From NCBI RefSeq assembly GCF_004519295.1, contig NZ_SOZH01000013.1:38823-102822 (forward strand): a stretch of DNA of 64,000 nt, read 5' to 3'. Of this stretch, positions 5,160 to 20,637 are shown one piece after another; within the stretch, counting starts at the first letter, position 1, and every line of letters begins with the position of its first letter. Under the pieces are notes generated by a model. That model was not told the DNA's origin and ran no database searches. It was given only the letters and a program-made list of their open reading frames with translations. The DNA comes from Cellulosimicrobium funkei (GTDB taxonomy: Bacteria > Actinomycetota > Actinomycetes > Actinomycetales > Cellulomonadaceae). A program made the translations under genes and the position numbers.

Positions 5160-5274
5160 CGCGGGCTCCCTGATGTCGGTGGTCGGGCGTGTCCACTCTG
5201 GCCGGGACGGCGGCCCTCGGGCGACGGCGCTCGCGACCACCTCCGCGGCCCGCCGTGCACGGATCGCACAAGGC

Positions 5275-5293
5275 GTTGGAGGGATCCTCCAAC
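5275..5293. promoter_or_regulatory. perfect palindrome upstream of bioY, possible operator
   Basis: The sequence GTTGGAGG, three spacer bases, CCTCCAAC forms a perfect 8-bp inverted repeat. It lies about 115 nt upstream of the bioY start and 80 nt upstream of the CIRCE element. It does not match the BirA or BioQ operator patterns I know. It could be bound by an uncharacterised regulator of either divergent gene. Confidence 0.4.
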
Positions 5294-5375
5294 CGCGCCG
5301 GGCGCGGGTGCGGGGTCGGTGTGGGAGCCGCACAACGCGGCCTGCCCGGCCGGTCGACACGGCTCGTCGCACCTC

Positions 5376-5402
5376 TTGGCACTCTCGGGGGGAGAGTGCT
5401 AA
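5376..5402 (+). promoter_or_regulatory. CIRCE-type HrcA operator overlapping the hsp20 promoter
   Basis: TTGGCACTC, nine bases, then GAGTGCTAA. The CIRCE consensus is TTAGCACTC-N9-GAGTGCTAA, so only one base differs. The element also contains a plausible -35 (TTGGCA at 5376) and a -10-like CTAAAA starting 17 nt later, so a bound repressor would cover the promoter. In actinobacteria CIRCE is the binding site of HrcA. This makes the downstream small heat-shock gene a probable HrcA target. Confidence 0.85.
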
Positions 5403-5496
5403 AACAGGAGCTGTAGCCGCCCGCGGGGTGCCTGCCTCGCGGGAGCACCGACCGGTCCCGGACCGTCCGGGACCGTGCGACGAGGAGGTGAGAGGT

Positions 5497-5982
5497 GTGG
5501 CTGCGATGACCGACCCCTTCACGAGCACCTTCGACGCGATGGACCGTCTGGTCGGCCAGCTCGCGTCCGGCGCCCGCGCGACCGCCGCCTCGGCGGCCTC
5601 GGGCGGCATGCCGCTCGACCTGTTCCGCGCCGGGGACCACTACGTGCTGACGATGGACCTCCCGGGCGTCGACCCGGGCACGATCGACGTGTCCGTCGAG
5701 GACCGCACGCTGACCATCCGCGCCGAGCGCAGCCCGCAGACCGACCCGGACGTCCAGTGGCTCGCCCGGGAGCGGCCGTCCGGCACGTACGCGCGCCAGC
5801 TCACGGTGGGGCGCGGCCTGGCGCTCGACAAGATCACGGCGTCGTACGAGGACGGCGTGCTGACGCTGACGATCCCGGTGGCCGAGGAGGCCCGGCCCCG
5901 CCGGATCGAGGTCGCGCACCGCGCGGGCGGCGCGGCGACCCAGATCACGGCCGAGGCCGAGCCTCAGACGTCCGAGGGCTGA
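5497..5982 (+). CDS. hsp20: Hsp20-family small heat-shock protein
   Basis: A 161-residue alpha-crystallin-domain chaperone. The alpha-crystallin core runs from about residue 37 to 130 and contains MPLDLFRAGDHYVLTMDLPG, VSVEDRTLTIRAER and the conserved A-x-x-x-x-G-V-L motif as ASYEDGVLTLTIPV. Small heat-shock proteins bind unfolding proteins without ATP and hold them for refolding. The GTG at 5497 is preferred because GGAGG lies 8 nt upstream; the ATG at 5506 is the alternative. The gene is monocistronic and preceded by a CIRCE operator, so heat induction through HrcA is expected. The neighbour on the right is convergent. Confidence 0.93.
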   Translation: MAAMTDPFTSTFDAMDRLVGQLASGARATAASAASGGMPLDLFRAGDHYVLTMDLPGVDPGTIDVSVEDRTLTIRAERSPQTDPDVQWLARERPSGTYARQLTVGRGLALDKITASYEDGVLTLTIPVAEEARPRRIEVAHRAGGAATQITAEAEPQTSEG

Positions 5983-5989
5983 GCCCGGC

Positions 5990-6961
5990 TCACGCCTCGC
6001 CCGGGAGCGCCTTGCGGACGACGAGGCGCGTCCACGCCCCGAGGTACACGCGGTCCCCGTCGGCCAGCTCGCGTCGCTGGCCGGCGGGGATCGGGTCCGT
6101 CGGGAGCGGTTCGCCCGCGGGGCTCACGTAGGTGCCGTTCGAGGACTGCAGGTCCTCGACCCACCAGCGCTGCCCGTCCGTGCTGAGCTGGCAGTGCCGT
6201 CGCGAGACCCCGGTGTCCGCGCCGCAGTCGACCTGCGGGTGGATGCCGCGCGAGACCGACGGGCGCCCCACGAGCACGCTGCGCTCGCGCAGCACGACGA
6301 GCCCCGGCAGGCCCGCCGACGGCATGGGGTCCTCGGGCTGCTGGGCCGCGTACCAGTCCGGGTCGATCCAGATCTCGACGACCCACTGGTCCGGCCCGGG
6401 CACGGGCGGCGTCGGCAGGTGCGCGCCCGACGGCGCGGGGCCGGCCGGGTCCGCAGACGCACCGGCGGGCTGCTCGCCCGTGCCCGTCCCGGTGGCCGGC
6501 GTCGACGCCGGAGCCTCGAGCGGCGCGGAGGCGCCCGGCGGCGGGGTGGCCGCGGACGCCGGGGACGCGGCCGGAGCCGGGAGCGGGGGCGGCGTCACGC
6601 CCGACGCGAGGCTCGCCTCCGGTGCGGCAGGGGGAGCGGCGGGTGCGGCCGGGGTGGCCGGCGTGGGGCGCGACGGCGGGTCGAGCGAGAGCGCCGACGC
6701 AGGCTCCACCGGGTCGGGCAGGGCGCCGGTGGTGAAGTCGTAGCCGCAGTTCTCGCAGAACAGCGCGCCGGCAGGAGCGGGCGAGCCGCAGTTCGGGCAC
6801 TCGAGGGCCCGAGCCGGTGCGGAGGCCCCGCCCGGAGCAGGAGACGCCGCGCCCGCCGCGGGCGCCGCGGGTGCCGACGCCGCGGCGATGGGCTCGCCGC
6901 ACACGTCGCAGTAGTCGGTCGACTCCGAGGGGTGCCCGTTGGGGCAGACGACGGCGCTCAC
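5990..6961 (-). CDS. FHA-domain protein with N-terminal zinc ribbons
   Basis: A 323-residue cytoplasmic protein. Residues 1-60 hold two zinc-ribbon-like modules: CPNGH...YCDVCG and LECPNCG...FCENCG. A long Pro/Ala-rich linker follows to about residue 200. The C-terminal FHA domain has the diagnostic pattern VGRPSVSRGI, SRRHCQL and SSNGTYV, which binds phosphothreonine peptides. It is the last gene of the PknG cluster, and its GTG overlaps the stop of the VWA gene (GTGA). In mycobacteria PknG acts through the FHA protein GarA. This protein is a candidate reader or substrate here, but it is much longer than GarA and has no recognisable GarA-like threonine tail, so it is not called GarA. Confidence 0.85.
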   Translation of the reverse strand: MSAVVCPNGHPSESTDYCDVCGEPIAAASAPAAPAAGAASPAPGGASAPARALECPNCGSPAPAGALFCENCGYDFTTGALPDPVEPASALSLDPPSRPTPATPAAPAAPPAAPEASLASGVTPPPLPAPAASPASAATPPPGASAPLEAPASTPATGTGTGEQPAGASADPAGPAPSGAHLPTPPVPGPDQWVVEIWIDPDWYAAQQPEDPMPSAGLPGLVVLRERSVLVGRPSVSRGIHPQVDCGADTGVSRRHCQLSTDGQRWWVEDLQSSNGTYVSPAGEPLPTDPIPAGQRRELADGDRVYLGAWTRLVVRKALPGEA

Positions 6962-8241
6962 CGACGCACCCGCGTCGTCTTCGTCGAGGCGGTGTCGAGC
7001 GCCATCTCGTCGAGCGTCGAGGTGTTGCGCTTGAGCCGCACGGTGCCGTGCTCCTCGTCGTCGATCTCGACGACCTTGCGCAGGCGCGACGTCGCCTCCT
7101 CGTTCCCCGTCTGCTGCGCGAGCTGGACGGCGCGGCCGAGCTTGACGGTCGCCGTCGCCTCGTCGCCCGACGCCTTGGCCGCGAGGCCCTCCTGGATCGC
7201 CGCGGCGAGCTCGGTCTGGCCGGTGTAGTGCGCGACCTCGGGGTTGATGCGCGTGGTGAGCGACTCGTCGTCGGACCACTTCGCCTTGACCAGGCCCGAG
7301 GACACGACCTCGCCGTTCACGGCGAGCTGGACGCGCGCCGCGAGCTGCTCGGAGCCGACGGGCTTCGAGGCCACGCGCACCGCGACGTGGTAGTCGCGCG
7401 ACTCGTCGCCCCACGACCCGGTCGGGTACGCGCCCGTGAGCGGGTTGACCTCGGCCCGGCGGTGCGTGAGGTCCGCGACGGTCGGGGCGACCTGGCGCAC
7501 GAACAGCACCTGCGAGCCCTGCGGGGCCCACACGCGCAGGTCGGCCGAGGCGACGCCGCGCGCCATGGACGCCTGCATGAGCTTCTCGAAGTCGGCGGCG
7601 ATCTCGTTCGGGTCCGCGATGAGGTCCACCGTGCCGAGCAGCGCGGTGGAGATCTCGCGCAGCTCGTCGACCTGCCAGCGCGAGCCGACGCCGCGCGCGT
7701 CGCACTGGAAGTGGCCCGTGACGTCCCGCACCGCGGCCGAGAGATTGGCGCGGGGCTCGGACTCGTTCTTGCCGTCGGTGAGCAGGATCGCGTGCCGCTG
7801 CGTCGCCTGCGGCACCGTCGCGAAGAGCTGGTCCGCGAGGCGCAGCCACGTGCTCATCGCCGTGCCGCCGCCGGGCGTGAGCATCGAGATCGCGCGCTTC
7901 GCCTCGGCGCGCGCGCCCGGCTCCATCTGCACCATGGCCATGCGGGCGTTCGGGTAGGGGAACGCACGGTTCGCGACGTGGCTGCCGCCGACGATCGCGA
8001 ACCACGTGCCGTCGAGGATCTGGTCGACCGCGACCTGGGCCGCGTGCTTCGCGGCCTCGATGTTGCGCCCCGACATCGACCCCGACGTGTCGACCATGAT
8101 GATCTCGGCCACCCCGCCCGCGCCGCCGGCGCTCCCCGCGCTCCCGGCGCCGCGGCACGTCACGGTGACGATCGCGTGGACGTCCGTCGCGCCCTCGGAC
8201 AGGAACTCGTTCTGGTAGACCTCGGCGGCGAACTCGGCCAT
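6958..8241 (-). CDS. von Willebrand factor A domain protein
   Basis: A 427-residue soluble protein with a VWA domain at about residues 44-230. The metal-ion-dependent adhesion site is complete: D51-T-S-G-S55, T127 in GGGTAMSTW, and the TDG at about 155. A beta-rich region and a C-terminal helical part (around ELAAAIQEGLAAKASGD) follow. There is no signal peptide, so it works in the cytoplasm, probably as a Mg-dependent protein-protein adaptor. The ATG has a GAAGGAGC ribosome site. The 70-nt gap to the phosphatase upstream is one of only two real gaps in the ten-gene run, so an internal promoter is possible. VWA proteins often pair with AAA ATPases, and one is encoded in the same run. Confidence 0.88.
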   Translation of the reverse strand: MAEFAAEVYQNEFLSEGATDVHAIVTVTCRGAGSAGSAGGAGGVAEIIMVDTSGSMSGRNIEAAKHAAQVAVDQILDGTWFAIVGGSHVANRAFPYPNARMAMVQMEPGARAEAKRAISMLTPGGGTAMSTWLRLADQLFATVPQATQRHAILLTDGKNESEPRANLSAAVRDVTGHFQCDARGVGSRWQVDELREISTALLGTVDLIADPNEIAADFEKLMQASMARGVASADLRVWAPQGSQVLFVRQVAPTVADLTHRRAEVNPLTGAYPTGSWGDESRDYHVAVRVASKPVGSEQLAARVQLAVNGEVVSSGLVKAKWSDDESLTTRINPEVAHYTGQTELAAAIQEGLAAKASGDEATATVKLGRAVQLAQQTGNEEATSRLRKVVEIDDEEHGTVRLKRNTSTLDEMALDTASTKTTRVRR

Positions 8242-8311
8242 GGGGGCTCCTTCGGTGGTGCGGGTGTTCGTGCAGGCTATCGGGTCGTCGGGGCCCGACG
8301 CGCGGTGCGCG

Positions 8312-9610
8312 TCAGGCGGTGGCGGGGTCCGCCGGGGGCGGCGGCGGGGTCGCGGACGACGCCCGGGAGAACCGGGCGAGCGTCGCCGTGATGTTGTCCC
8401 GGCCGCCCTGGGCGTTCGCCCAGTCGACGAGCGCGCCCGCGAGCACCTGCGGGTCGTCGCCGACGCGGTCCTGCGTGCTGCGCACGAGGGCTGCCAGGTC
8501 GGCCGCGGGGGAGCAGTAGTTCCACAGGCCGTCCGAGCACACGAGCAGCCAGCCGTCGCGGTCGGGCAGGGTCGCGGCCGTGCGGGCCACCGGGTCGGGG
8601 GCGTCGGGGCCGAGCCAGCGCGTGATGGCGTGCGCCTGCGGCGACGTCTCCGCCTGGGCGCGCGGCACGCCCTGCGCGATCATCTCCTGCGCCCACGAGT
8701 CGTCCACGCTGAGCTGGTGCGCGTCGCCGTCGTCCGGGATCCAGTAGGCGCGCGAGTCGCCCACCCAGCCCGCCACGACGAGCGGCCCGTCGAGGACGGC
8801 CGCGACGAACGTGCACGACGGCGGGTTCTCGCGGTCGGCCATCGTGCCGACGGTCGCGAGGATCGCGTCCTGCGCGGCGCGCGACGCGTCGCCGAGGAGC
8901 GCGGACCACGCGCCCATGCGCGCCGAGGCCTCGCCGGTCACGGGGTCGGGACCGTCGGGGCCGCGCGCCGCGAGCACGTCGCGCGCGGCGCGCGCCGCGG
9001 CGAGGCTCGCGACGTCGGAGTCGGGCGCGGAGGACACGCCGTCGCACACGACGAGCGCCGCGAACGCCCGCTCGGCGGTCGCGGACGGGCTCGCCGCCAG
9101 GGCCATCGCGTCCTCGTTGCGCGAGTGCCGCACACCTCGGTCGCACACGCCGGCGACCCAGCTCGCGGGCCGCTCGGCCCAGTGGTCGCGCTCCGACGCC
9201 GCGGGCTCGCCGCACTCGGTGCAGTACCCGTCCTCGGCGACCCGGCCGCCGCAGCGCACGCAGGGGCGCGCGCCGCTCTCGGTGCCGTCGCCGTCGGTCT
9301 CGGCGGAGGCCTCGCCCGACGGCTCGGTGGTCCCGGCGGCGGTCTGGTCGTCGGACCCGGGCCCGCCGTCCCCGGTCCCGGCTGCTGCGGGGTCCGTCGC
9401 GGCGTCGGTCGCGAGGTCCGCGGCAGCTCCGGTCCCGGCGTCCGAGCCCGTCGCGGTCGGGAGCGGGGCGAGCGGGGTGCCGCACGCCTCGCAGAACCGG
9501 GCGCCCTCGGGCGACGGTTCCCCGCACGCCGGGCAGGCGAGCACGCCGCTAGGCTCCGCGACCGTGCCGCCGGGCACCGGTGCGGGCGCGGGCGCGGGGG
9601 AGTCGCTCAT
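8312..9610 (-). CDS. PP2C-type serine/threonine phosphatase with zinc ribbons
   Basis: A 432-residue protein. The N terminus has two C-x2-C ribbon modules (LACPACG...FCEACG and RPCVRCGG...YCTECG) separated by an acidic Ala/Thr linker. The PP2C domain from about residue 160 shows RHSRNEDAMAL, VVCDGVSSAPDSD (metal-binding Asp; the usual DGMGG is DGVSS), GWVGDSRAYWI, VCSDGLWNYC and GGRDNITATL. All metal-ligand aspartates appear present. It would reverse phosphorylation by the PknG-type kinase whose gene it overlaps by 4 bp (ATGA at 9607-9610). The kinase, phosphatase and FHA protein share the same cysteine-ribbon style, suggesting a common docking or redox feature. Confidence 0.9.
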   Translation of the reverse strand: MSDSPAPAPAPVPGGTVAEPSGVLACPACGEPSPEGARFCEACGTPLAPLPTATGSDAGTGAAADLATDAATDPAAAGTGDGGPGSDDQTAAGTTEPSGEASAETDGDGTESGARPCVRCGGRVAEDGYCTECGEPAASERDHWAERPASWVAGVCDRGVRHSRNEDAMALAASPSATAERAFAALVVCDGVSSAPDSDVASLAAARAARDVLAARGPDGPDPVTGEASARMGAWSALLGDASRAAQDAILATVGTMADRENPPSCTFVAAVLDGPLVVAGWVGDSRAYWIPDDGDAHQLSVDDSWAQEMIAQGVPRAQAETSPQAHAITRWLGPDAPDPVARTAATLPDRDGWLLVCSDGLWNYCSPAADLAALVRSTQDRVGDDPQVLAGALVDWANAQGGRDNITATLARFSRASSATPPPPPADPATA

Positions 9611-11958
9611 CGGATCGTCCACCGGCGCACCTCGTTCGCGCGGTCCACGAGCGTGATGCGCTCGTCCCGCGAGTCGGTGAGCGACGCGAGCTCGCGGTAC
9701 GCGCCCTCGAGCGCGTCGCGCAGCGCGGGCTCGTCGGCGGGCACGCCCGCGATGCGCGTGGTCGGCTCCGGGCCGGAGGTGGTCACGGTGTCGAGCGCGG
9801 AGCGCAGGACGCGCACCGCGAGCTCGGCCCGCTCGCGCGGCGCGATCGCGACGGTCGAGACGCTCGCCATGGCGTCGGCGAGCGCGGGCAGCCCGCGGCC
9901 CGAGGCGGCGAGCAGGTGCGCGCGGAGCGTGCGGGACTCGACGTACGACCCGCGCGTCGGGCCGACGAGGTCGAGCGCGTGCAGCGCGCCGTCGAGGTCG
10001 CCGCGCGCCTCGCGCACGCGCATGAGCCCGAACGCGGCCGGCGCGGTGTAGTTCGCGTCGGTGCGCGCGCAGATCACGTAGAGCGACTCGGCGATGTCGG
10101 GCTCGCCGCTCAGCTCGCAGGCCGCGGCGAGCGCGAGCTTGGGCGCGAGCTCGCCCGGCACCTGCCCGTACACGGCGTTGAACGACGCGCGCGCCGCGAC
10201 CGGGTCGCCCTGCGCGAGCTCGCCGAGGCCCCCGATCCACGCGGCGCGCCACTCCCACGGGTCGTCCGCGAGGATGGTCGCGATCGTGTCGCGCAGCACG
10301 TCGAACCGCTCCGCCTCGATCGCGGCGCGCGCCCGGGCGAGGCGCACCTCGACCGTGTCCTCGGGCGCGTCGGCGAGCGCGGCGAGGCGCGCGTCCGGGT
10401 CCACGACGTTGACCCCGGCGAGCCAGCTCGCCATGGGGTCGTGGTCGTCGCGCCGCAACGTCGGCAGCTCGTCCCAGGCGAGCGGGCGGGACGCGACGTC
10501 CGCGACCGGCGCCTCGAACAGGACCGAGGCCGCCGAGTGCAGCGCCGGGTTGCCCGGGCCGGCGTCCGCCGCCACGACCTCCCGCAGGACGCCGAGGAGC
10601 TGGGTGCGCATCTCGTCGGCGGTCGCGAACCGGTCGGCCGGGTCGAGCGCGCACGCCTTGGCGAGCAGGCGGTAGAACGAGTCGTACTGCTGGAACACCG
10701 GGGTGTCCGCGACGGGCGGGAGCGACGCGACGTACGTCGTCGTGTTCCCGCGGAAGTCGAGGACGAGCGTCGCGAGGGTGCGTCCGATCGTGTAGATGTC
10801 GGAGGCGACCGACGGCCCGACCTCCGCGACCTCGGGCGCTTGATAGCCGACCGTGCCGAAGATGGCGGAGGTGAGGTCGTCGGTGCGGCGCACGCCGCCG
10901 AGGTCGATGAGCTTCACGCCGTCGCCCTGCTGGATGACGTTCTCCGGCTTGAAGTCGCAGAACAGCAGGTTGTGGTCGTGCAGGTACGCGAACGCGGGCA
11001 GGATCGCGAGCACGTAGGCGAGGGCCTGGTCCACGGGCATCGGGTCGATGACCCCGTTGTTGTCCTCCCGGCGCTGCTGGAGGATCTCCTTGAGCGACTC
11101 GCCGCCGACGTACTCCATGACGGTGTAGCCGGCTCCGTCGTGCATCGCGAAGTTGTAGATCTCGACGATGAGCGGGTGCTCGACCTCCGCGAGGAACTGG
11201 CGCTCCGAGATCGCCGCCGCGTACGCGTCGGGGTCGCCGGAGTTGAGCAGGCCCTTGAGCACGACCCACCGGCCGGACACGTTCTGGTCGCGCGCGAGGT
11301 AGATCCAGCCGAGGCCGCCGTGCGCGAGGCAGCCCACGACCTCGTACTGGCCGCCCACGAGGTCGCCCGGCTTCAGCTGCGGGGTGAAGTCGAAGCGGTT
11401 GCCGCAGTGGGGGCAGAACCCGGAGGTGCGGCCGGGCTGGCCGTCGCGCCCGCGGCCGACCTTCTCGCCGCACGCGGGGCAGAAGCGCTTGCGCTCGGCG
11501 ACCTCGGGCACGGCCATGACGGACTGCAGCGGGTCCCGGACGGGCACCGACGGGACCGTCGTGAGGCCCGCGCCGAGGCCACGCCCGCGCAGGCGCGTCG
11601 AGGACGTTCCGACGCGGCGGGTCGCCTTGGAGCCGGTCGCGGCGGTGCGCGCGGAGCCGAGCGCGGTCGACGCGAGGCGGCTCGAGCTCGTGCGGCCGGT
11701 GCGCGTGGAGCGCTCGGCGTCGGGGTCGCCCGCCCCGGCGGTGCCCGGGCGGCCCTGCACGAACCCGGTGCCGAGCATGGCGGACGGCGAGGCGGCGGCC
11801 GCGCTCCCGGGCGCGGGCACGCCGGTGATGCCGCTCGCGGCGGGCGTCGGCGTGGTGCCGGAGCCGCCCGCGGGCGCGCCGCAGACGTTGCAGTAGCCGT
11901 CCTCGATGGTGCCCGGGCAGCCGGGCTCCGAGCACGGGACGGTCGCGGTGGTCGTCAC
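9607..11958 (-). CDS. pknG: PknG-type serine/threonine protein kinase
   Basis: A 783-residue kinase with the PknG layout. It has an N-terminal zinc ribbon (CSEPGCPGTIEDGYCNVCG), a low-complexity linker, a rubredoxin-like pair (FCPACGEKV, GFCPHCGNRF) at about 150-182, a kinase domain at about 190-450 and a C-terminal TPR-like helical region. Kinase motifs are the glycine loop AHGGLGWIYLA, catalytic lysine in VVLKGLL, catalytic loop LFCDFKPENVI (the PknG form of HRDLKPEN), and DLGGVRR in place of DFG. The GTG at 11956-11958 has GGAAGGAG 7 nt upstream. Mycobacterial PknG responds to amino acids through GlnH/GlnX; homologues of both are encoded directly upstream here. Confidence 0.93.
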   Translation of the reverse strand: MTTTATVPCSEPGCPGTIEDGYCNVCGAPAGGSGTTPTPAASGITGVPAPGSAAAASPSAMLGTGFVQGRPGTAGAGDPDAERSTRTGRTSSSRLASTALGSARTAATGSKATRRVGTSSTRLRGRGLGAGLTTVPSVPVRDPLQSVMAVPEVAERKRFCPACGEKVGRGRDGQPGRTSGFCPHCGNRFDFTPQLKPGDLVGGQYEVVGCLAHGGLGWIYLARDQNVSGRWVVLKGLLNSGDPDAYAAAISERQFLAEVEHPLIVEIYNFAMHDGAGYTVMEYVGGESLKEILQQRREDNNGVIDPMPVDQALAYVLAILPAFAYLHDHNLLFCDFKPENVIQQGDGVKLIDLGGVRRTDDLTSAIFGTVGYQAPEVAEVGPSVASDIYTIGRTLATLVLDFRGNTTTYVASLPPVADTPVFQQYDSFYRLLAKACALDPADRFATADEMRTQLLGVLREVVAADAGPGNPALHSAASVLFEAPVADVASRPLAWDELPTLRRDDHDPMASWLAGVNVVDPDARLAALADAPEDTVEVRLARARAAIEAERFDVLRDTIATILADDPWEWRAAWIGGLGELAQGDPVAARASFNAVYGQVPGELAPKLALAAACELSGEPDIAESLYVICARTDANYTAPAAFGLMRVREARGDLDGALHALDLVGPTRGSYVESRTLRAHLLAASGRGLPALADAMASVSTVAIAPRERAELAVRVLRSALDTVTTSGPEPTTRIAGVPADEPALRDALEGAYRELASLTDSRDERITLVDRANEVRRWTIR

Positions 11959-13061
11959 GACGACGCTCCTTCCGGGGTGGGCAGGTCGCGGGTGAGGAAC
12001 TGGTACTGCTCGACGAGGAACCGCGCGAGCGTCACGTCGCACGGCGTCGTCTCGACGGCCTCGCGCGCCTCGGCGAGGCCCGAGCGCACCGTGGGGGACG
12101 CCGAGCGGCCGTTGACGTCGGCCCGCGCGGCGAGCCGCTCCAGGCTGTACCGCAGCTCGGCGCGCGCGCGCAGGGGACGGGTGTAGGCGTCCTCGACGGT
12201 CTCGACGGCGCGGGCCACGGTCGCGAGCCGGGCCGCGTAGGCGTCGAGCTCGAACCGCGAGTCCGGCACGGGGCCGAGGCGCGAGACGTCGGGGACGGCG
12301 AGCCGCGGCGGGTGCGCGATCTCGCGGCGGCAGCGCGCGACGAGCTCGCGCAGGGCGGGCTCGCGCGCCTCGAGCGCGGCGCGCTGCTCCTCGGTGCGGG
12401 CGCGGTCCCGGCGCAGCTCACGACGCTGCGCGGACGCGACGATGAGGTCGCGCTCGGCGCGCGCGACCTCGGTCTCGAGCTCCGCGAGCGGGCCCGACAC
12501 GTCGGCGCCGCGCGCAGCCTGCGCGACGAGGTGGTCGAGGCGCCCGCGGAGGGTCTCGACGCGCCCGCGCGCGTCGGCGTCCGAGCCCGCGAGGTCCTCG
12601 CAGCGCACGAGCTCGGCGCGCACGCCGCGCAGCCGTGCGACCTGGTCGGCCGTGTGCGGGTCGAAGGACAGGCGCGTGCGCAGCTGCACGACGAGCGCGT
12701 CGCACAGCTTGACCGCCTCGACGAGCGAGACGAGCGCGGCGCCCGAGCCCGAGTCGAGCCGGCCCCACAGGAGCTGGGAGATCTTCTCGCGCGCGACGGC
12801 GTCGGCCCGGCCCGAGTCCCAGACGGGCCGGATCTCGTCGGCGCGCGAGCGGATCGCCTGCCACAGCGACAGGGCGAGCACGAGGTCGGCGGTGTAGGCG
12901 TCGGGCGTCGCGGCGGCCTGCGCGGCGGCGTCGAGACGGTCGAGCTCGGTGCGGCGCTCGTCGAGCCAGGTCTCGAGCGCGCCGAGGTACGCCAGGAGGT
13001 CGGCGGCGGGGATCGCCTCGCCGAGCCGTCCCGGCGCCTCGGGTGCGGGGGAGCGCGTCAC
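11955..13061 (-). CDS. coiled-coil protein of unknown function in PknG cluster
   Basis: A 368-residue soluble protein, almost entirely helical by composition, with long charged heptad-like stretches between about residues 150 and 250 (for example AELETEVARAERDLIVASAQ and RTEEQRAALEAREPALREL). There is no signal peptide, membrane segment or enzymatic motif. Its GTG overlaps the GlnH stop, and its own stop overlaps the pknG start, both as 4-bp GTGA junctions. That tight coupling between sensor and kinase genes makes it a candidate adaptor or scaffold. I do not recognise the family. Confidence 0.8.
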   Translation of the reverse strand: MTRSPAPEAPGRLGEAIPAADLLAYLGALETWLDERRTELDRLDAAAQAAATPDAYTADLVLALSLWQAIRSRADEIRPVWDSGRADAVAREKISQLLWGRLDSGSGAALVSLVEAVKLCDALVVQLRTRLSFDPHTADQVARLRGVRAELVRCEDLAGSDADARGRVETLRGRLDHLVAQAARGADVSGPLAELETEVARAERDLIVASAQRRELRRDRARTEEQRAALEAREPALRELVARCRREIAHPPRLAVPDVSRLGPVPDSRFELDAYAARLATVARAVETVEDAYTRPLRARAELRYSLERLAARADVNGRSASPTVRSGLAEAREAVETTPCDVTLARFLVEQYQFLTRDLPTPEGASS

Positions 13062-14098
13062 GGCGTGCGGCCGTACACCGCGGCCGGCGGGGTCGGGGCG
13101 GGGCCCAGGCCGCCGAGCCACTCGCCGTAGATCGCGGCCCAGCGCCCGTCGGCCTTCATCTGTTCCAGGACGCCGTTGACGAACCGCACCATGTCGACGT
13201 TCTGCGCCGGGACGCCGATGCCGTAGGGCTCGTCGCTGATCGCCTCGCCGACGACCTTCGCGTACGGGTCCTGGGCCGCGAAGCCCGCGAGGATCGTGTC
13301 GTCGCCGGTGATCGCGTCGACCTTGCCCTGCTGGAACAGCACGAGGCACTGCGTGTGCGTGGTCGCCGGGACGGGCTCGATGCCGGAGAACTGCTCGAGG
13401 CGCGTGAGCGTCGTCGTGCCCTCGGGCGCGCACACGCGCTGGCCCTCGAGGTCCGCGATCCCGTTCGCGGTCGAGTCGCGCGTGACGAGCACCTTCTGCC
13501 CCGCGTGGTAGTACTCCGCGGAGAACGCGATGGACTCCCAGCGCTCGCAGTTGATGGTGAACGCGCGCGCGACGAGGTCGACCTCGCCGTTCTCGAGCAC
13601 CTCGAGCCGCTGCCCCGACGTGATGACGCGGAACTGCAGCCGGTCGGGGTCGCCGAAGATCGCGCGCGAGACCTCGTGCAGCACGTCGATGTCGAAGCCC
13701 TCGATCTGGCCGGACAGCGGGTTCCGCGCGCCCATGAGCAGCGTGTCCGCGGAGACGCCGACGACGAGCGTGCCGCGGTCGCGGATCGCGGCCATGGTGC
13801 TGCCGCCGGGCAGGGCGTCCGGGCCGGGCAGAGCGCCCTCGGGCGCGTACGAGGCGAGCGGGTCGGCGCACTCGGCCGGTGCGGCGGGCGCCGCGGGGGA
13901 CTCCGTGGCCGACTCGTCCTGCGGGGTGGTCGTCAGGCGCAGGTCCTCCGCGCCGGACGGCCCGGAGCACGCGCCGAGCGTCAGCAGCGCGACGAGCGCC
14001 GAGGCCAGCCCGGTCGTGACGACGCCGGTGCGGCGCGCGCGCGTGCCGGTGCGGCGGGTCCCGGCGGGCCGGGCGTGGGGGGCGGGCGTCGTGGTCAC
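13058..14098 (-). CDS. glnH: GlnH-type substrate-binding lipoprotein (amino-acid sensor)
   Basis: A 346-residue extracytoplasmic solute-binding protein of family 3. The N terminus has a basic twin-arginine-rich stretch, a hydrophobic core and a lipobox LGAC with the lipid-acceptor cysteine at about residue 44. The mature part has RDRGTLVVGVSADT, the family signature GFDIDVLHEVSRAIFG, and ITSGQRLEVLENGEVDLVARAFTI. Such proteins bind glutamate, glutamine or aspartate. No permease or ABC ATPase gene is nearby, so it probably acts as a sensor with the membrane protein GlnX encoded immediately upstream, as in the mycobacterial GlnH-GlnX-PknG pathway. Both gene junctions are 4-bp overlaps. Confidence 0.9.
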   Translation of the reverse strand: MTTTPAPHARPAGTRRTGTRARRTGVVTTGLASALVALLTLGACSGPSGAEDLRLTTTPQDESATESPAAPAAPAECADPLASYAPEGALPGPDALPGGSTMAAIRDRGTLVVGVSADTLLMGARNPLSGQIEGFDIDVLHEVSRAIFGDPDRLQFRVITSGQRLEVLENGEVDLVARAFTINCERWESIAFSAEYYHAGQKVLVTRDSTANGIADLEGQRVCAPEGTTTLTRLEQFSGIEPVPATTHTQCLVLFQQGKVDAITGDDTILAGFAAQDPYAKVVGEAISDEPYGIGVPAQNVDMVRFVNGVLEQMKADGRWAAIYGEWLGGLGPAPTPPAAVYGRTP

Positions 14099-15453
14099 CG
14101 GTACTCCTCCAGTCGTGCCGTCACGCCGCGCCACGCGAGCAGTGCCGCGACGAGCCCTGCCGCGAGCAGCAGCCAGCCCGCGACGGTGGCCGTCGTCGCC
14201 GCGCCGTCGAGGCGGTCGCTCGTCGCGGCGGCGTGGGTCTCGATGTCGTCGCGCGCCGCGGCCGAGAACGCGTCGAACGCGGCGTTGGGGCTCTCGGGGT
14301 CGGTCGCGGTCGCGAGGGCGACCGCGTCGTCCCACTGGCCCGCGTCGTCGAGCGCGCGGATCTCGGCGTGCCGCGCGACCCAGGCGTCGAGCGCCTGCGC
14401 CGTCGTCCCGTCGAGGTTGCCCTCGGACGCCGCGGTGTCGAGGCGTGCCGCCGCGTCGTCCGTCGCGGCGACGAACGACTCCTCGTACGTCTGGCCCGAG
14501 CCGCGCTTGATGAGCGTGAACGCCTCCATGGACTTCGCGTCGTTCGCGAGCGAGTAGGCCTGCGACGCGGCGAGCGTCGCGGCGTACGGGCCGGTCCGCA
14601 CGTCGTGCGCGCGGGCGCTCGCCTGGGAGAGCAGGACCGTCGAGACGACGCCCACGACGAGCAGCACGGCCGTGGCGACGGTGAGCCCCACGTTGAGCAC
14701 GCGGTGCGTGCGCCGCGCGAGCCAGACCTGGCTCGCGAGGAGCACGGCGAGGGCCAGCAGGCCGGCCGCGAGCACCCACAGCGCGTTGCGCACGCCCGAG
14801 AAGTCCGCGGCGACGCGGTCGGCGTCGTCGAGCACGACCTCGTCGAGCGCGGGGAGCATCTGCTCGCGCAGGATCGTCGAGGCCTGGTCGAGGTACGCGG
14901 ACCCGACGGGGAAGCCCTGCCGGTTGGTGGCGCGCGCCTGCTCGACGAGGCCCGTGTAGACCGTGAGGTCGGCGGCCACCTGGCCCAGCAGCGCGGCGTC
15001 CGCCTCGTTGCTGCCCGAGAGCGTGGCGAGGCGGTTCGCGGCCTGGTCGACGAGCTCGTCGTACCGCGCGCGCTGGTCGGCGGGCTCGAGGCCCCCGACG
15101 AGGAACGCCCCGGTCGCGGTCGCGTCCGCGGCGACGAGCGCGTTGCGGACCTCCTGGACCCCGACGAGCTGGGCCGCGTCCTCGCTCGCCGCGGCGAGGG
15201 CGCGCGACTGGAGGCTGCCGGCCTGGAACCCGAGGACGCCGAGCGCGAGCGCGGCGAGCACGCACAGCGCCATGACGAGGCGCAGCTTGCCGGGCGTCCG
15301 TCGCAGCGCGCCGCGCGCACGGGACACGGCGGCGCTCTGCGACCCCTGCGGGACGACGGCGCCCCCGCCCGGGGCGGTCAGGGCACCGCCCGGCGCGGGG
15401 CCGCCGGCCGGGACGATCTGCTGGCCCGCCGGGCGGACCGGGGTGGTCGTCAT
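14095..15453 (-). CDS. glnX: GlnX-like membrane signal transducer
   Basis: A 452-residue membrane protein. A Pro/Gly-rich cytoplasmic N terminus precedes a first membrane helix (about 57-80) and an extracytoplasmic helical domain. Two helices follow near the middle (WVLAAGLLALAVLLASQV and VATAVLLVVGVVSTVLL), then a second extracytoplasmic helical domain and a last helix near the C terminus (VAGWLLLAAGLVAALLAW). The duplicated sensor-domain arrangement resembles four-helix-bundle receptor domains. In mycobacteria GlnX is the membrane partner relaying GlnH binding to PknG. The ATG has GAGGAG 5 nt upstream and overlaps the AAA ATPase stop (ATGA). Confidence 0.8.
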   Translation of the reverse strand: MTTTPVRPAGQQIVPAGGPAPGGALTAPGGGAVVPQGSQSAAVSRARGALRRTPGKLRLVMALCVLAALALGVLGFQAGSLQSRALAAASEDAAQLVGVQEVRNALVAADATATGAFLVGGLEPADQRARYDELVDQAANRLATLSGSNEADAALLGQVAADLTVYTGLVEQARATNRQGFPVGSAYLDQASTILREQMLPALDEVVLDDADRVAADFSGVRNALWVLAAGLLALAVLLASQVWLARRTHRVLNVGLTVATAVLLVVGVVSTVLLSQASARAHDVRTGPYAATLAASQAYSLANDAKSMEAFTLIKRGSGQTYEESFVAATDDAAARLDTAASEGNLDGTTAQALDAWVARHAEIRALDDAGQWDDAVALATATDPESPNAAFDAFSAAARDDIETHAAATSDRLDGAATTATVAGWLLLAAGLVAALLAWRGVTARLEEYR

Positions 15454-17129
15454 GCGTTCTCCTCGGCGCTGGAGGGTGCGGTGTCTGGTGCGTCGTCGGT
15501 GCCGTCGGTGGTCTCGGTGGCAGGCGGGTCGGCCGGCGCGTCCTCGGGTGCGGGCGGCTCGAGCGTCGCGAGGAGCGCGGGAGCGCCCTCGCCGTCCACG
15601 AGGTCGACGGGCAGGAGCAGGCGCAACTCGTCGATCGTCGGGGCGGCGACGTCCTTGAGCCGCCACGCGTGGCGCGCGATCGCGGCGTCGAGCACGTTGC
15701 GGGCCCAGCGGGCGTTGCCGAACCCCTCGGTGCGCGGCTGCGCCGCGGCGAGCCGGGCGAAGACGTCGAGCGCCTCGGGGGTCGGCTCGAAGTCCGCCCG
15801 GGAGGCCATGCTCGCGAAGATGTCGCGCAGCTCGGCGTCGGCGTAGTCCTCGAACGTGATGGTCGTGGAGAACCGCGACTCGAGGCCGGGGTTCGTCGCG
15901 AGGAAGTCGGCCATCGGGCCGGGGTAGCCCGCCACGATGACCACGAGCTCGTCGCGGTGGTCCTCCATGTCCTTGACGAGCGTGTTGATCGCCTCGGCGC
16001 CGTACTGGTCCTCCGCGAGCCCGTACGCCTCGTCGACGAACAGGACGCCGCCGAGCGCGGTCGTGACGACCTCCGACGTCTTCACGGCAGTCTGACCGAG
16101 GTAGCCCGCGACGAGCTCCGAGCGGTCGACCTCGACGAGGTGGCCCTTCTCGAGCAGACCGAGCGCGCGGTAGATGCCCGCGACGAGCCGCGCGACCGTC
16201 GTCTTGCCCGTGCCCGGGTTGCCGAGGAACACGAGGTGACGCGTGAGCGTGGGGCGGGTCAGGCCCGCCTCGGTGCGCAGCTTCTCGACGCGCAGCAGCT
16301 CGGTCTGGCGGTGGATCTCGTCCTTGACGCGCGTGAGGCCCGTGAGCGCGTCGAGCTCGGCGAGCAGCTCCTCGATCGAGCGCGCGGGCTCCTCCTCGAC
16401 CGCCACCTCCGCGGCGGTCTCCGTGGCCGTCTCCGCGCTCCCGGCGGTCGCGCCCGCCGTCGTGCCCGACGCCGGGGCGTGCGTCGTGCCGGACGGCGCG
16501 GCTCCGCCCTCGGTCCCGCGAGCACCGAGCGCGTCGAGGATCGACGCGACGGACGGGAGCTCGGGCGCCGGGCGGCGCAGCGCGTCGAGCGAGCCCTGCG
16601 CGGCGAGCAGGTCGCCGAGGTCGAACGGGTCCGCGCCGCCCGTCGCGCGGCGAGCGGCGAGCGGGCCGCCCGCGGCGGGCGTCGGGCCTGCTGGCGCGTG
16701 GGTCGCAGCAGGGGCGGCCACCGGGCCGGCTCCGGCCTGCTGGACGGCGGCGGTCGCGGCGGCGGCCCCGGCGACGTGCGGGCCGGGGGAGCCGAGGCGC
16801 GCAGCCGCGCGGGCGACGTCGGCGAGCGCCTGCCCGTACGCCGTCGCGTGCTTCGAGCGCGCCGCCCCGAGGGCGGCGAGGACGTCGGTCGGGGACGTGC
16901 GCCAGCGCCGGGCGCTCGACGCCGCGGTGAAGAACGCGCCCGTCGCCGCCGGGTCGTGGCCCAGCGCGGCGAGCCACGCCGCCGGGGCGCCCGGGGAGGA
17001 CTCGGCGACGGCCGCGGCGAGGCGCGCGCCCTCGTCGCGGGCGGCCTCCTCGTCGACGCCCGCGGCACGCGCGGCGGCGTCCAGCGCGTCGAGCGCCGCC
17101 GCGAGGGTCGGGGTGTCCGGGGTGGTCAC
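15450..17129 (-). CDS. CbbX/SpoVK-type AAA+ ATPase
   Basis: A 559-residue protein. The first ~250 residues are Ala-rich, helical and low in complexity. The AAA module follows: SIEELLAELDALTGLTRVKDEI, Walker A GNPGTGKTTVAR, pore-loop region GYLGQTAVKT, Walker B GGVLFVDEAYGLA, and the arginine-finger region NPGLESRFSTTITF. This order is typical of the CbbX/SpoVK subfamily, whose members remodel protein complexes. A short acidic, Thr/Pro-rich tail ends the protein. The GTG is preceded by GGAGG with a 4-nt spacer and overlaps the upstream gene's stop. The VWA protein of the same cluster is a plausible partner, since VWA/AAA pairs often act as chaperone-like units. Confidence 0.88.
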   Translation of the reverse strand: MTTPDTPTLAAALDALDAAARAAGVDEEAARDEGARLAAAVAESSPGAPAAWLAALGHDPAATGAFFTAASSARRWRTSPTDVLAALGAARSKHATAYGQALADVARAAARLGSPGPHVAGAAAATAAVQQAGAGPVAAPAATHAPAGPTPAAGGPLAARRATGGADPFDLGDLLAAQGSLDALRRPAPELPSVASILDALGARGTEGGAAPSGTTHAPASGTTAGATAGSAETATETAAEVAVEEEPARSIEELLAELDALTGLTRVKDEIHRQTELLRVEKLRTEAGLTRPTLTRHLVFLGNPGTGKTTVARLVAGIYRALGLLEKGHLVEVDRSELVAGYLGQTAVKTSEVVTTALGGVLFVDEAYGLAEDQYGAEAINTLVKDMEDHRDELVVIVAGYPGPMADFLATNPGLESRFSTTITFEDYADAELRDIFASMASRADFEPTPEALDVFARLAAAQPRTEGFGNARWARNVLDAAIARHAWRLKDVAAPTIDELRLLLPVDLVDGEGAPALLATLEPPAPEDAPADPPATETTDGTDDAPDTAPSSAEENA

Positions 17130-17692
17130 GGTGCCTCCAGTCGTCCGGGCTCCGACGGCGGACCCGGCTGCGGCGTGCCCCGGCCCGCGCCGGGGTCGAG
17201 CGCGATCGACGAGTCGCGGAACTTCTCCGCGAGGAACGCGCCGTGCGCGACGAGGGCCGCAGCGTCGGCCCGCGACACGGCGTCGGAGATCTTGTCGAGC
17301 GTCACGCCGAGCAGGTCGAGCTGGTCGCACAGCAGCATGAGCGACGTCTTGCCCTGCGCGACGACCCGTCGGTCGGCGAAGTCGCGCGGCAGGCGCAGGT
17401 AGGCGCCGACGGCCTCGGGCAGGTAGCTCGTCGCCGTCGCGACGACCGTGTGCGCCTGCTGCGACCCGCCGCCGAGACGGTCGAGGCGCGGGACCATCTC
17501 CTCGACCGTGCCGGTGATGCGGTGCACGCGCGCCGTCACGGCGGGCGGCACGCGCCCCTCGATCTGCTGCTCGACCCGCTCGACCGACGCGAGGATGTCG
17601 GTCGACGTGGGCGGGGCCGGCAGCTCGTGCTCGGGCTCGGGCGCGGAGGACCGGCCGCCGAGGCGGCCGATCACGTCGGAGAACCAGCCCAT
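17126..17692 (-). CDS. unknown 188-residue protein next to TelA
   Basis: A soluble, mostly helical 188-residue protein starting MGWFSDVIGRLGGRSS. The middle section (STDILASVERVEQQI through PRDFADRRVVAQGKTSLMLL) is amphipathic, and the C terminus is Pro/Gly-rich. There is no membrane helix and no catalytic motif. TelA-family genes are often next to XpaC-like genes, and this position would fit such a partner, but I see no convincing XpaC signature. It lies 53 nt after telA, and its stop overlaps the AAA ATPase start by 4 bp, so it belongs to the same transcript. Confidence 0.75.
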   Translation of the reverse strand: MGWFSDVIGRLGGRSSAPEPEHELPAPPTSTDILASVERVEQQIEGRVPPAVTARVHRITGTVEEMVPRLDRLGGGSQQAHTVVATATSYLPEAVGAYLRLPRDFADRRVVAQGKTSLMLLCDQLDLLGVTLDKISDAVSRADAAALVAHGAFLAEKFRDSSIALDPGAGRGTPQPGPPSEPGRLEAP

Positions 17693-17745
17693 CTAGCTCG
17701 GGGTCCGATCTGTGGTGCGGGGAGGGGTGGTCGAGAGACAGCGCG

Positions 17746-18963
17746 TCACAGCCGGCCGATGTCGAGCGAGCCGCTGCCCGCCTGCGACTGGTCGGAGCGG
17801 CGCGCACGGTCCAGGTACTCGTTCGCCTTCGTCGTCTCCGTCTCCAGGACGCCGATGGTCTGCGCCATGGAGTCGAGCGCCTGCGTCTTGAACGTCGAGA
17901 TCGAGTCGAGCGTCGCGTAGATGTTCGCGAACGCCTGCTGGAGCTGCGGGAGCCCGACGGTCGCGCTCGCGGCCTGCTGCTGGATGCTCGCCGACTGGTC
18001 CGCCAGCATCTTCGAGGTCGACGCGATCATGTTCGACGTCGTCGTGTTGAGCGCCGTGATCTGGTCGAGCACGAGCTTCTGGTTCGCGAGCGCCTGCGCC
18101 ACGATGACGGCGGTCCGCAGCGCCGAGATCGTCGTGGTCGTCGCGCGGTCGACGCCCTTGATGAGCTCGAGGTTGTTCTTCATGATGATGTCCATCGCGA
18201 GGTAGCCCTGGATGGACACCGCGAGCTGCGTGAGCAGGTCCTGGTGCTTCTGGCGCACGTAGAACAGCACGTCCTCGCGCAGCGCCTTGGCCCGCTCCGG
18301 GTCGCTCGCCTCGATCTCCGCGATCTTCGTGGACAGCTCGGTGTCGAGGCGCTCGGCGATGAAGATGTACTGGTTGAGCCGCGCCATCGTGTCCCAGAGG
18401 TTCTGCTTCTCCAGGTTGAGCGCTGCGTTGTCCTTGCGGAGCTCGTCCTGGCCGTTGTACAGCGACTGGACGATCGCGTTGAGCTGCTTCTGCGAGCTCT
18501 CGTAGCGGCGGAAGTAGTCCTGGAGCTTCCCGCCGAACGGGATGAGGCCCAGGAACTTCTTGCCGACGCTCGCCTCGCTCGGGTCGAGGTCCTCCACGGT
18601 GCGGCGCAGCTCGAGCAGCGACTTGCTCACCTTCGAGCTGTCGGACACGCCGCCCTCGCGCAGCTCCTTGACCGGCATCTCCAGCATGCGGTTGGAGACG
18701 TCGGCCGCGGCGCGGATGTCCTTGTCGCCCATCTTGCGGACGTCGTCCGCCTTCGCGCCGAACTCGGGGGAGCGGGTGTCCGTGGTCAGGAGCTGGTCGA
18801 GGTAGGACGACACCTTCGACTCGAGACCCGGGATGGCCGCCTCGTCGACGCGCGGCGCGAGCGCCGGGGCCTGGGTCGCCGCGACGGGCTTGACGGGCTC
18901 CGGGGCGCTGAGCGTGAGCGTCTCCGTCGGGGCGGGGGGCTGGAGCGGTGCTGCCTCGGTCAT
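17746..18963 (-). CDS. telA: TelA family (toxic-anion-resistance-like) protein
   Basis: A 405-residue protein with the TelA domain from about residue 50 to 390. It has long amphipathic helices including KDIRAAADVSNRMLEMP, KKFLGLIPFGGKLQDYFRRY, VRQKHQDLLTQLAVSIQGYL and LRTAVIVAQALANQKLVLDQ. The family was named for tellurite resistance, but members are widespread coiled-coil proteins linked to membrane-stress responses, and the biochemical function is unknown. It is the first gene of the ten-gene cluster. The ATG has a GAAGGA site. The upstream 275 nt are free of genes and hold an AT-rich patch that may be the cluster promoter. Confidence 0.92.
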   Translation of the reverse strand: MTEAAPLQPPAPTETLTLSAPEPVKPVAATQAPALAPRVDEAAIPGLESKVSSYLDQLLTTDTRSPEFGAKADDVRKMGDKDIRAAADVSNRMLEMPVKELREGGVSDSSKVSKSLLELRRTVEDLDPSEASVGKKFLGLIPFGGKLQDYFRRYESSQKQLNAIVQSLYNGQDELRKDNAALNLEKQNLWDTMARLNQYIFIAERLDTELSTKIAEIEASDPERAKALREDVLFYVRQKHQDLLTQLAVSIQGYLAMDIIMKNNLELIKGVDRATTTTISALRTAVIVAQALANQKLVLDQITALNTTTSNMIASTSKMLADQSASIQQQAASATVGLPQLQQAFANIYATLDSISTFKTQALDSMAQTIGVLETETTKANEYLDRARRSDQSQAGSGSLDIGRL

Positions 18964-19238
18964 GTCGGTCCTTCGCTCGTGCGTGCCGTCGGACGCCGTC
19001 GGTGGCGGGTGGAGGACGCCCTCGCGGGCTCCCCCTCGACCCGGGCGAACCGGGTGGAACCGGCCTGCGCCGGTCGGGCGAGTATATCTACGACCGGTGG
19101 CCGGATCTTTACCCTTTCCGGGGATCGGGAGGGTGAGAACTCCCCATGTCAGACCAACGTTCGGGCGGCCGGCGAGTTCCGCCCCTCGGCCTGCGTGGCG
19201 GTGCACCGGGGTGCCCGGCGACAGCGTGCGCACGTCCC
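18964..19238 (-). promoter_or_regulatory. intergenic region upstream of telA, probable cluster promoter
   Basis: No gene is visible in these 275 nt. Most of it is GC-rich, except an AT-rich patch at 19082-19115 whose minus strand reads TAGATATACT. That could serve as a -10 for the leftward telA-to-FHA transcript, giving a leader of roughly 115 nt. A matching -35 is not obvious. The position is inferred from base composition only. Confidence 0.35.
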
Positions 19239-19703
19239 TCAGCGGGGCGACCGGAGGAAGTCCGCGGCGAGCTCTGCGGGGGTGGCGCCGGTGAACCCGG
19301 TGCCGTCCAGCGGTCGCGTGAGCTCCTGGGCGCGGGTGCCGTCGGTGATCGTCACGCGGAGCGTGTCCGCGTGCCAGCGGATCCGCCGGTACGCCAGCGG
19401 CTGCCCGAAGTCCCGGAGCAGGCCCTCCCAGGTGCCCAGGTCGATCAGGTACGCGGCCCACCCGAGCCGCCGGGACCAGGGCGGGAAGCCACTCGCCTCC
19501 ACCCCGGGGACGACCGGGACCAGCCCGGCGACGCCGGCCGCGAGCGCAGCCCAGACGGCCCGCGAGCCCTGCCCTACGAACAGGTCCACGCTCCCGCCCT
19601 GGACGGTCCGGACGCGCACGCCGCCCGGGAACGGCTCGAGCGCGAGCGTCACCGGGTCGGGGCCAGGCTGGCCCGCCTCGATCTGGCCGACCGCAGCGAT
19701 CAA
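19239..19703 (-). CDS. hypothetical protein, 154 residues
   Basis: A TTG-initiated frame of 154 residues with normal protein-like composition (for example VRVRTVQGGSVDLFVGQGSRAVW, RRLGWAAYLIDLGTWEGLL and TDGTRAQELTRPLDG). There is no signal peptide or membrane helix and no motif I recognise. The start is uncertain because no strong ribosome-binding site is visible. The end of the frameshifted secreted gene lies only 15 nt upstream, so the two may be co-transcribed. It could be a partner of that protein. Confidence 0.55.
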   Translation of the reverse strand: MIAAVGQIEAGQPGPDPVTLALEPFPGGVRVRTVQGGSVDLFVGQGSRAVWAALAAGVAGLVPVVPGVEASGFPPWSRRLGWAAYLIDLGTWEGLLRDFGQPLAYRRIRWHADTLRVTITDGTRAQELTRPLDGTGFTGATPAELAADFLRSPR

Positions 19704-19718
19704 GATCCCCGAGCGTGC

Positions 19719-20368: not shown

Positions 20369-20514
20369 GTACCGGAGAGAGGGACGTGCGCCGTTCCTGA
20401 TACCCGGGTGAGGAAGAGACCTGCCTCGGCCGGCACGAGCATGTGGGGACCGTCGCGCCGCAGGCGCTTCCAGGCTCGCCCGGGCGTGATGTGCGTCGCG
20501 CGAGGGTCGCGCGT

Positions 20515-20553
20515 GGTGCCCCGAGCAGGACTTGAACCTGCAACCTACGGATT
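20515..20553 (-). repeat. left attachment site (orphan 3' half of tRNA-Arg)
   Basis: This 39-bp copy matches the 3' half of tRNA-Arg(TCT) at 23063-23101 with one mismatch, in the T-loop region. No 5' half of a tRNA lies beyond it: the sequence diverges exactly in the anticodon loop. It is therefore an att duplication, not a second tRNA gene. Confidence 0.85.
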
Positions 20554-20569
20554 CCTACGTTCGAAACAT

Positions 20570-20637
20570 ATAGACGCAGGTCTAGAGCAAATAGACAGCC
20601 ATAGACGATTCTCCTGAACTTATGGACGTACGTCTAT
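20570..20637. repeat. TAGACG repeat cluster inside left end of island
   Basis: ATAGACG or a one-base variant occurs at 20570, 20591, 20601 and 20622, and the inverted form CGTCTAT at 20631-20637. The last two form a 16-nt near-palindrome ATGGACGTACGTCTAT. GTAGACG occurs twice more inside the right end (23003, 23016). Short repeats placed this way beside att cores usually are integrase arm-type binding sites (inference). Confidence 0.55.

Follow-up and report, generated by a model that had tools for sequence, protein, structure and literature searches.

We describe here a run of ten genes around pknG in a 64,000-nt stretch of Cellulosimicrobium funkei DNA (the window; contig NZ_SOZH01000013.1 of assembly GCF_004519295.1). 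The genes are read on the minus strand, from position 18963 to position 5990, in the order TelA, orf188, AAA+ ATPase, GlnX, GlnH, gene 6, PknG, PP2C phosphatase, VWA protein and zinc-ribbon FHA protein. Every reading frame was confirmed, together with the layout given in a preliminary description made from the letters alone, namely that seven of the nine junctions are 4-bp overlaps and that the other two are gaps of 53 nt (TelA-orf188) and 70 nt (PP2C-VWA). The earlier domain assignments agree with the Pfam and NCBIfam matches (Table 1).

Motif strings that we take to be typical for their families are intact in PknG (VVLK, CDFKPEN and DLG), the PP2C phosphatase (CDG, SDG and GGRDNIT), the VWA protein (DTSGS, GGTA and TDG), the FHA protein (VGR, SRRH and NGT) and the AAA+ ATPase (GNPGTGKT and VLFVDE). 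The PknG kinase and PknG_TPR domains both exceed their Pfam cut-offs (PF00069 and PF16918), and the best NCBIfam matches of gene 3 are SpoVK, EccA and CbbX, each below its cut-off. The whole assembly (4.38 Mb in 19 contigs) holds a single PknG-rubredoxin match. A scan for internal sigma-70-like promoters found none, but with 0.1 expected by chance it says little, and the promoter and terminator scan of the run was uninformative. Rfam gave no match at gathering score within window positions 4500-21000.

Table 1. Genes, junctions and predicted sites of the ten-gene run (window coordinates)
Feature	Position	Strand	Evidence
Gene 1, TelA, 405 aa, first in operon	17746..18963	-	PF05816 E 4.8e-94
Gene 2, orf188, predicted helical TelA partner, matches no family	17126..17692	-	model pLDDT 77; conserved in Micrococcales
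Gene 3, AAA+ ATPase of SpoVK/CbbX/EccA type, 559 aa	15450..17129	-	PF00004, PF17866 (AAA_lid_6)
Gene 4, GlnX, membrane signal transducer, 452 aa	14095..15453	-	NF058618 E 8.1e-93, over cut-off
Codons for last eight GlnX residues (ARLEEYR end), predicted PknG dock	14098..14121	-	column conservation
Gene 5, GlnH-like solute-binding lipoprotein, 346 aa	13058..14098	-	SBP_bac_3 PF00497 E 6.1e-24; 6h1u E 3.2e-69
Gene 6, predicted all-helical protein, 368 aa, possible scaffold	11955..13061	-	matches no family; model pLDDT 91.6
Gene 7, PknG, 783 aa: N-terminal ribbon, rubredoxin, kinase, TPR	9607..11958	-	PF16919, PF00069, PF16918; solved PknG 2pzi E 9.2e-137
PknG N-terminal zinc ribbon, residues 9-26	11881..11934	-	motif
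Gene 8, PP2C phosphatase, 432 aa	8312..9610	-	PF13672 E 2.1e-13 and zinc-ribbon families
PP2C zinc ribbon type B, residues 26-43	9482..9535	-	motif and zinc-ribbon families
PP2C zinc ribbon type A, residues 117-133	9212..9262	-	motif
Gene 9, VWA protein with MIDAS motif, 427 aa	6958..8241	-	PF13768 (VWA_3), PF18571 (VWA_3_C)
Codons for VWA tail DEMALDTASTKTTRV, residues 411-425, predicted phosphosite	6967..7011	-	column conservation
Gene 10, zinc-ribbon FHA protein, 323 aa, last in operon	5990..6961	-	PF00498 E 5.8e-12 and zinc-ribbon families
FHA protein ribbon type B, residues 55-72	6746..6799	-	motif
FHA protein ribbon type A, residues 6-21	6899..6946	-	motif
Overlap junctions (start base/low end of upstream stop)	17129/17126, 15453/15450, 14098/14095, 13061/13058, 11958/11955, 9610/9607, 6961/6958	-	

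Conservation of the ten-gene set

In the phylum, PknG_TPR was found in 64 of 396 genomes (over cut-off in 47), and GlnX at E < 1e-50 in 32 of 297 genomes of the same order, the source genome included. We gathered 64 loci: 40 centred on the remaining GlnX matches in the order, 20 on selected PknG matches in the phylum, and four from the same genus. The ten families were mapped in them by iterated hidden Markov models seeded from the window proteins. A second set came from a scan with the VWA alignment and comprises the best 80 of 587 confirmed relatives; 56 of these 80 are well flanked (9.9 kb or more on the upstream side, 2.4 kb or more on the downstream side, and under 200 N). Five loci are common to both sets. 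Counts given below as distinct exclude such repeats, which are still included in 26/40, 42/56, the GlnX column scores (n 118) and the PP2C/FHA ribbon count (99/100). Some apparent gene swaps in the locus maps are an artefact of plotting open-frame or match starts.

All ten families were present in 31 of the 64 loci (26/40 of the order, 1/20 of the phylum and 4/4 of the genus). The other 14 loci of the order comprise two cut by contig ends (L030 and L042), four that are reduced (L037, L040, L049 and L054) and eight GlnX copies without PknG nearby. Among the well-flanked loci of the VWA scan, all ten families occur in 42 of 56, among them loci of Nocardioides, Kribbella, Nostocoides, Phycicoccus, Janibacter, Luteipulveratus, Cellulomonas, Antribacter, Oerskovia, Sediminihabitans and Kineosporia. 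Six of the 56 lack only GlnH, one lacks GlnH and orf188 (L154) and one GlnH and AAA (L200). TelA is missing from L160, and TelA, orf188 and AAA from L176, but both stretches begin there, so that these absences mean little. A locus titled Streptomyces sp. SID13031 (L158; VWA match of 71% identity) has a ten-gene set that is Kribbella-like and not like that of family f10, and its label may be wrong. The top named homologues of genes 2 and 6, apart from the window's own entry, are from Cellulosimicrobium, at 95% and 92% identity.

The co-occurrence hence extends well beyond close relatives, and the earlier reservation that TelA, AAA and VWA genes might not be kept with pknG outside them was not borne out. 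Layout and recurrence together support an operon-like unit, and the return of the same ten families in so many loci argues that the set is more than chance.

Smaller sets were also found. Five loci of f10, a family with large genomes that we read as Streptomycetaceae, carry a seven-gene core (GlnX, GlnH, gene 6, PknG, PP2C, VWA and FHA) without TelA, orf188 and AAA, and a locus from another class (L016) has the same seven genes split into two convergent blocks. Of seven loci in family f11, read as Mycobacteriaceae, five have GlnX, GlnH and PknG and two have PknG alone of the ten. In a tree of 49 PknG rows, the PknGs of ten-gene loci cluster together (100/100), and the four reduced loci fall within this cluster; the tree was rooted at its midpoint, a pair of long paralogue branches joins in it, and L016, although of another class, falls inside the extended set. 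This grouping points to one recruitment of TelA-orf188-AAA followed by losses.

The three-gene form works alone (passages of PMC6069109 and PMC9769921), which favours a reading where GlnX, GlnH and PknG control only GarA/OdhI, and hence 2-oxoglutarate dehydrogenase, as they do in mycobacteria and C. glutamicum, the other seven genes being transcribed with them but serving unrelated functions. GarA/OdhI relatives are indeed encoded in the source genome and in 29 of 29 genomes tested, and the copy elsewhere in the source genome (154 bits, below the 200-bit family cut-off) keeps the N-terminal Thr-Thr pair (DTTVSFG). Since such a relative is still present, the operon FHA protein need not replace GarA, and we rejected it as a plain GarA replacement; PknG may still act on GarA/OdhI. 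The GarA/OdhI relatives of three f10 genomes and of G185 and G382 (L072-L074, L083 and L084) have an N-terminal CxxC pair that is absent from the source-genome copy. Against a classical pathway with passengers stand the recurrence of one gene set across loci, the PknG ribbon that goes with the partner genes, and the loss of GlnH where the remaining genes stay. We judge it unlikely, though it deserves weight.

Protein tails and zinc ribbons

The VWA protein ends in a C-terminal tail, DEMALDTASTKTTRV, in which S419, T420, T422 and R424 are present in all 114 distinct sequences, M413 and L415 are also invariant, and T417 is kept in 113 of the 114. Scored in 12-residue windows, this tail stands at the 99th percentile of the VWA protein. 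Eight other families, tested at their C-termini in the same way, gave percentiles of 7 to 68, except for GlnX (97) and FHA (94), the folded domain of the latter being C-terminal. Furthermore, V or I occupies the position +3 from T422 in 112 of 114 distinct sequences, which fits one class of FHA targets. A looser Ser-Thr pattern was seen in 106 of 120 homologues of the L016 VWA protein among the matches listed, some from Solirubrobacteraceae or Acidimicrobiales. From this conservation we predict that the tail is the most likely substrate of PknG and ligand of the FHA protein. At L012 and L014, distant PknG relatives lie beside a VWA gene with a C-terminal zinc-ribbon motif, and the Ser-Thr tail motif is recognisable before that ribbon.

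Conservation is low over the rest of GlnX (mean column score 0.33, n 118), yet 110 of the 112 distinct sequences end in E-[Y/F]-x, and only L200 and L172 (D for E) deviate. E428 and Y429, the second and third residues counted from the end, are two of the three best columns among 430 (n 118). This ending holds in three-gene loci, in f10 loci, in second GlnX copies and in most GlnH-less loci. TPR domains usually take short C-terminal peptides as ligands, and we therefore predict that the GlnX tail is the dock for PknG. The PknG TPR groove was earlier proposed as the GlnX site (passages of PMC6069109 and PMC8546545). According to PMC9769921, the C-terminal end of Corynebacterium glutamicum GlnX is cytoplasmic and about eight residues long, and the way in which GlnX contacts PknG is still elusive; the string 'EYR' is absent from that text. 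The second GlnX copies of eight genomes of family f91 (L055 and L057-L063) have no PknG nearby.

The preliminary description had proposed a kinase, an FHA reader and a PP2C phosphatase encoded together, and this stands, all three proteins having zinc ribbons. PknG has one at its N-terminus besides the rubredoxin domain, and the PP2C and FHA proteins have two each. Among distinct loci, the N-terminal PknG ribbon occurs in 93 of the 95 that have PP2C, VWA and FHA, in one of six with one or two of these partners and in one of nine with none. PP2C and FHA both bear ribbons in 99 of 100 loci. PP2C and FHA clearly have ribbon type B in common, with median scores of 33 to 41 bits across models. For type A the PknG ribbon model scored 16.2 on FHA, 14.6 on PP2C and 4.5 on rubredoxin, the ribbon classes having been chosen by motif, which favours likeness.

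Receptor, output genes and proposed circuit

The window GlnH matches the solved GlnH 6h1u. With pocket numbering after PMC6069109, the backbone contacts, Arg147, Arg169 and Asp250 are kept, Ser164 is replaced by Thr, Thr162 by Ala and Trp232 by His, so that two of the three side-chain-contacting residues of mycobacterial GlnH are changed. In 82 distinct GlnH sequences (three-gene, f10 and L016 loci left out) Arg147 is found in all 82, Trp232 in none and His at position 232 in 62. The ligand is likely an amino acid and perhaps an acidic one, but it cannot safely be called Asp or Glu from these residues; Asp/Glu sensing carried over unchanged is unsupported by the altered side-chain pocket. At nine loci (L151, L154-L156, L166, L174, L177, L178 and L200) GlnH is gone, GlnX is strongly diverged (40-162 bits) and gene 6 comes next, an arrangement met in several Propionibacteriaceae and in Mobilicoccus. 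Given that GlnH is missing alone or with one other gene in 8 of the 56 well-flanked loci, the amino-acid sensing proposed at the outset is not the fixed part of the system. The cytoplasmic gene set is the constant part and the receptor the part that changes.

On the output side, orf188 scores above 200 bits in 30 of 297 genomes of the order, with a query alignment that holds many of these loci, and 29 of the 30 are among the 32 with strong GlnX. The thirtieth (G636, locus L114) has TelA, orf188, AAA, a divergent GlnX, gene 6, PknG, PP2C and VWA together. TelA itself is found in 91 of the 297 genomes. Weaker orf188 relatives occur in other genomes and lie beside TelA in 15 of 19 such loci fetched; hence TelA with an orf188-like gene is, judging from these neighbourhoods, also a separate two-gene unit. 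At four loci (L103, L104, L118 and L119) TelA has next to it a tandem of weak orf188-like matches, two or three in number. In Firmicutes the partner of TelA is XpaC; we rejected orf188 as an XpaC, this family not being among the 10 Pfam families listed for 32 members at E up to 10 under HMMER filters. No Pfam or NCBIfam family was assigned to orf188, and a fold search of the PDB gave it no match better than E 0.19.

Gene 6 was likewise assigned to no Pfam or NCBIfam family. Its Pfam search gave only weak coiled-coil-type matches, the best being Myosin_tail_1 (E 0.00032, in 4 of 32 members), and its PDB fold search no match under E 1; the structure model predicts an all-helical protein. Of the two proteins first listed as unknown, orf188 can thus be tied to a family adjacent to TelA, and gene 6 is described only as predicted all-helical.

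Gene content, conservation, intact motifs, the two tails, the ribbons and the stand-alone TelA/orf188-like pairs are features of the sequences; the interactions, the phosphosite and the output of the switch are what we infer. On this basis the ten-gene operon may be one receptor-driven phospho-switch, a reading that we hold tentatively, at a little short of an even chance. The GlnH-GlnX receptor would activate PknG via the conserved C-terminal tail of GlnX, and PknG would phosphorylate the VWA protein in its invariant Ser/Thr tail. This mark would be read by the zinc-ribbon FHA protein and removed by the PP2C phosphatase. Once marked, the VWA protein would direct the AAA+ ATPase as well as TelA and orf188, with the membrane as the probable site. 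Through their zinc ribbons, kinase, phosphatase and reader would assemble on one shared partner, the candidate being the helical product of gene 6. We regard as doubtful a fuller version where the carboxylate tail of GlnX (RxxEYR) sits in the PknG TPR groove, PknG marks the STKTTRV tail of the VWA protein, a shared zinc-ribbon code keeps kinase, phosphatase and reader together on one scaffold, TelA-orf188-AAA is the membrane machine being driven and the three-gene mycobacterial pathway is a pared-down exception.

Several observations weigh against a single circuit. In four of the 56 well-flanked loci (L147, L188, L190 and L192) most upstream genes are missing although the DNA has no N, and in L147 about 10 kb separate PP2C from VWA. 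The seven-gene core does without TelA, orf188 and AAA, which would therefore not be needed by the switch itself. The nine partner-less loci in the ribbon comparison are mostly of one family and are not nine independent cases. The likeness among type A ribbons is modest, the PP2C type A model scoring 18.1 on PknG, 13.3 on rubredoxin and 10.9 on FHA. The second GlnX copies at eight loci keep the tail without PknG nearby, and GarA/OdhI, present in every genome tested, may be the main substrate. Weighing the conservation, the ribbons and both tails, we find a single circuit more probable than a series of passenger genes. Of the write/erase/read circuit with a remodelling output that had been proposed, the kinase, PP2C and FHA set is conserved together, and a membrane-stress or complex-remodelling machine built on TelA and AAA may be its output.

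TelA has been placed in submembrane structures of Ter systems (passages of PMC7824862), and for this reason we draw it at the membrane end of the model. The same placement fits a different reading, where a TerY-P-like stress or defence module has a kinase-PP2C-VWA switch for metal, envelope or phage stress, TelA and AAA+ as output, and GlnX as a borrowed sensor. The same three families form the TerY-P triad, and a SpoVK-family AAA has been reported between the VWA genes of related operons (passages of PMC11090510). However, no restriction enzyme, nuclease, TerC or TerD was found among the ten genes with Pfam and NCBIfam, the kinase is without a C-terminal ribbon, and the PknGs of ten-gene loci are one clade. 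PADLOC yielded generic kinase and ATPase matches only, and we rejected assignment to a known defence system. A stress or defence module of this kind appears improbable.

Near the end of the run, a CIRCE-like inverted repeat (window 5376-5402) has one mismatch to the consensus, with none expected by chance. Downstream of it an Hsp20 gene (5497-5982, plus strand) is convergent with the operon end. At about 20520-20660 on the minus strand a tRNA-like 3' end was seen by eye beside repeated TAGAC words; ARAGORN called no tRNA there.

Comparison with known systems

PknG is much studied and is known with a three-gene pathway. The points that could now be tested are the GlnX tail as dock, the VWA tail as substrate, and partner genes so far unjoined to PknG in the literature searched. 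A search of mostly open papers, figures excluded, found none joining PknG to TelA, VWA or a dedicated PP2C, and in the text covered PknG and TelA were co-mentioned as whole words only in a paper on EssB. Fig. 2B of PMC6069109 draws PknG neighbourhoods and may show some of these genes. If the phospho-switch model is true, the work in mycobacteria and corynebacteria covers no more than a part of the PknG pathway.

The MoxR AAA-VWA chaperone pairs (passages of PMC7824862) resemble the window in that a single operon encodes both an AAA+ ATPase and a VWA protein with MIDAS motif. In contrast, the window AAA is SpoVK/CbbX/EccA-like, lies five genes away from the VWA gene and is missing from the seven-gene core. 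We rejected MoxR-VWA membership because gene 3 matched no MoxR family at E 0.001, giving AAA, AAA_lid_6, SpoVK, EccA and CbbX instead. The actinobacterial GAP1-N2 GTPase neighbourhoods (passages of PMC7159879) have a trio of ribbon-bearing kinase, PP2C and stand-alone VWA like that of the window, whereas the ten genes come without the GTPase system, and PknG goes unmentioned in those passages.

A kinase-PP2C-VWA combination is known elsewhere as a signalling unit (passages of PMC11090510 and PMC7159879), and VWA, PP2C and a Ser/Thr kinase with a zinc ribbon make up the TerY-P triad (Anantharaman 2012, as cited in passages of PMC11090510 and PMC7824862). The window likewise encodes VWA, PP2C and a zinc-ribbon kinase together, and a SpoVK-type AAA can be near the triad too (passages of PMC11090510). 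The window kinase, however, is PknG, with its ribbon at the N-terminus (residues 9-26) and TPR at the C-terminus, and the set includes an FHA reader and the GlnX-GlnH receptor. TerY-P membership, which calls for a C-terminal kinase ribbon, was therefore rejected; the locus may work like the triad.

The locus contains the PknG pathway. As in the GlnH-GlnX-PknG-GarA/OdhI pathway of Mycobacterium and Corynebacterium, GlnX, GlnH and PknG stand in the same order, with gene 6 between GlnH and PknG in the window, and the PknG kinase, rubredoxin and TPR domains, the GlnX tail and a GarA/OdhI relative elsewhere in the genome are shared. The window differs in its seven added genes, the N-terminal PknG ribbon and the altered GlnH side-chain pocket. 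Collectively, the closest known counterpart is the PknG pathway crossed with a TerY-P-like triad.

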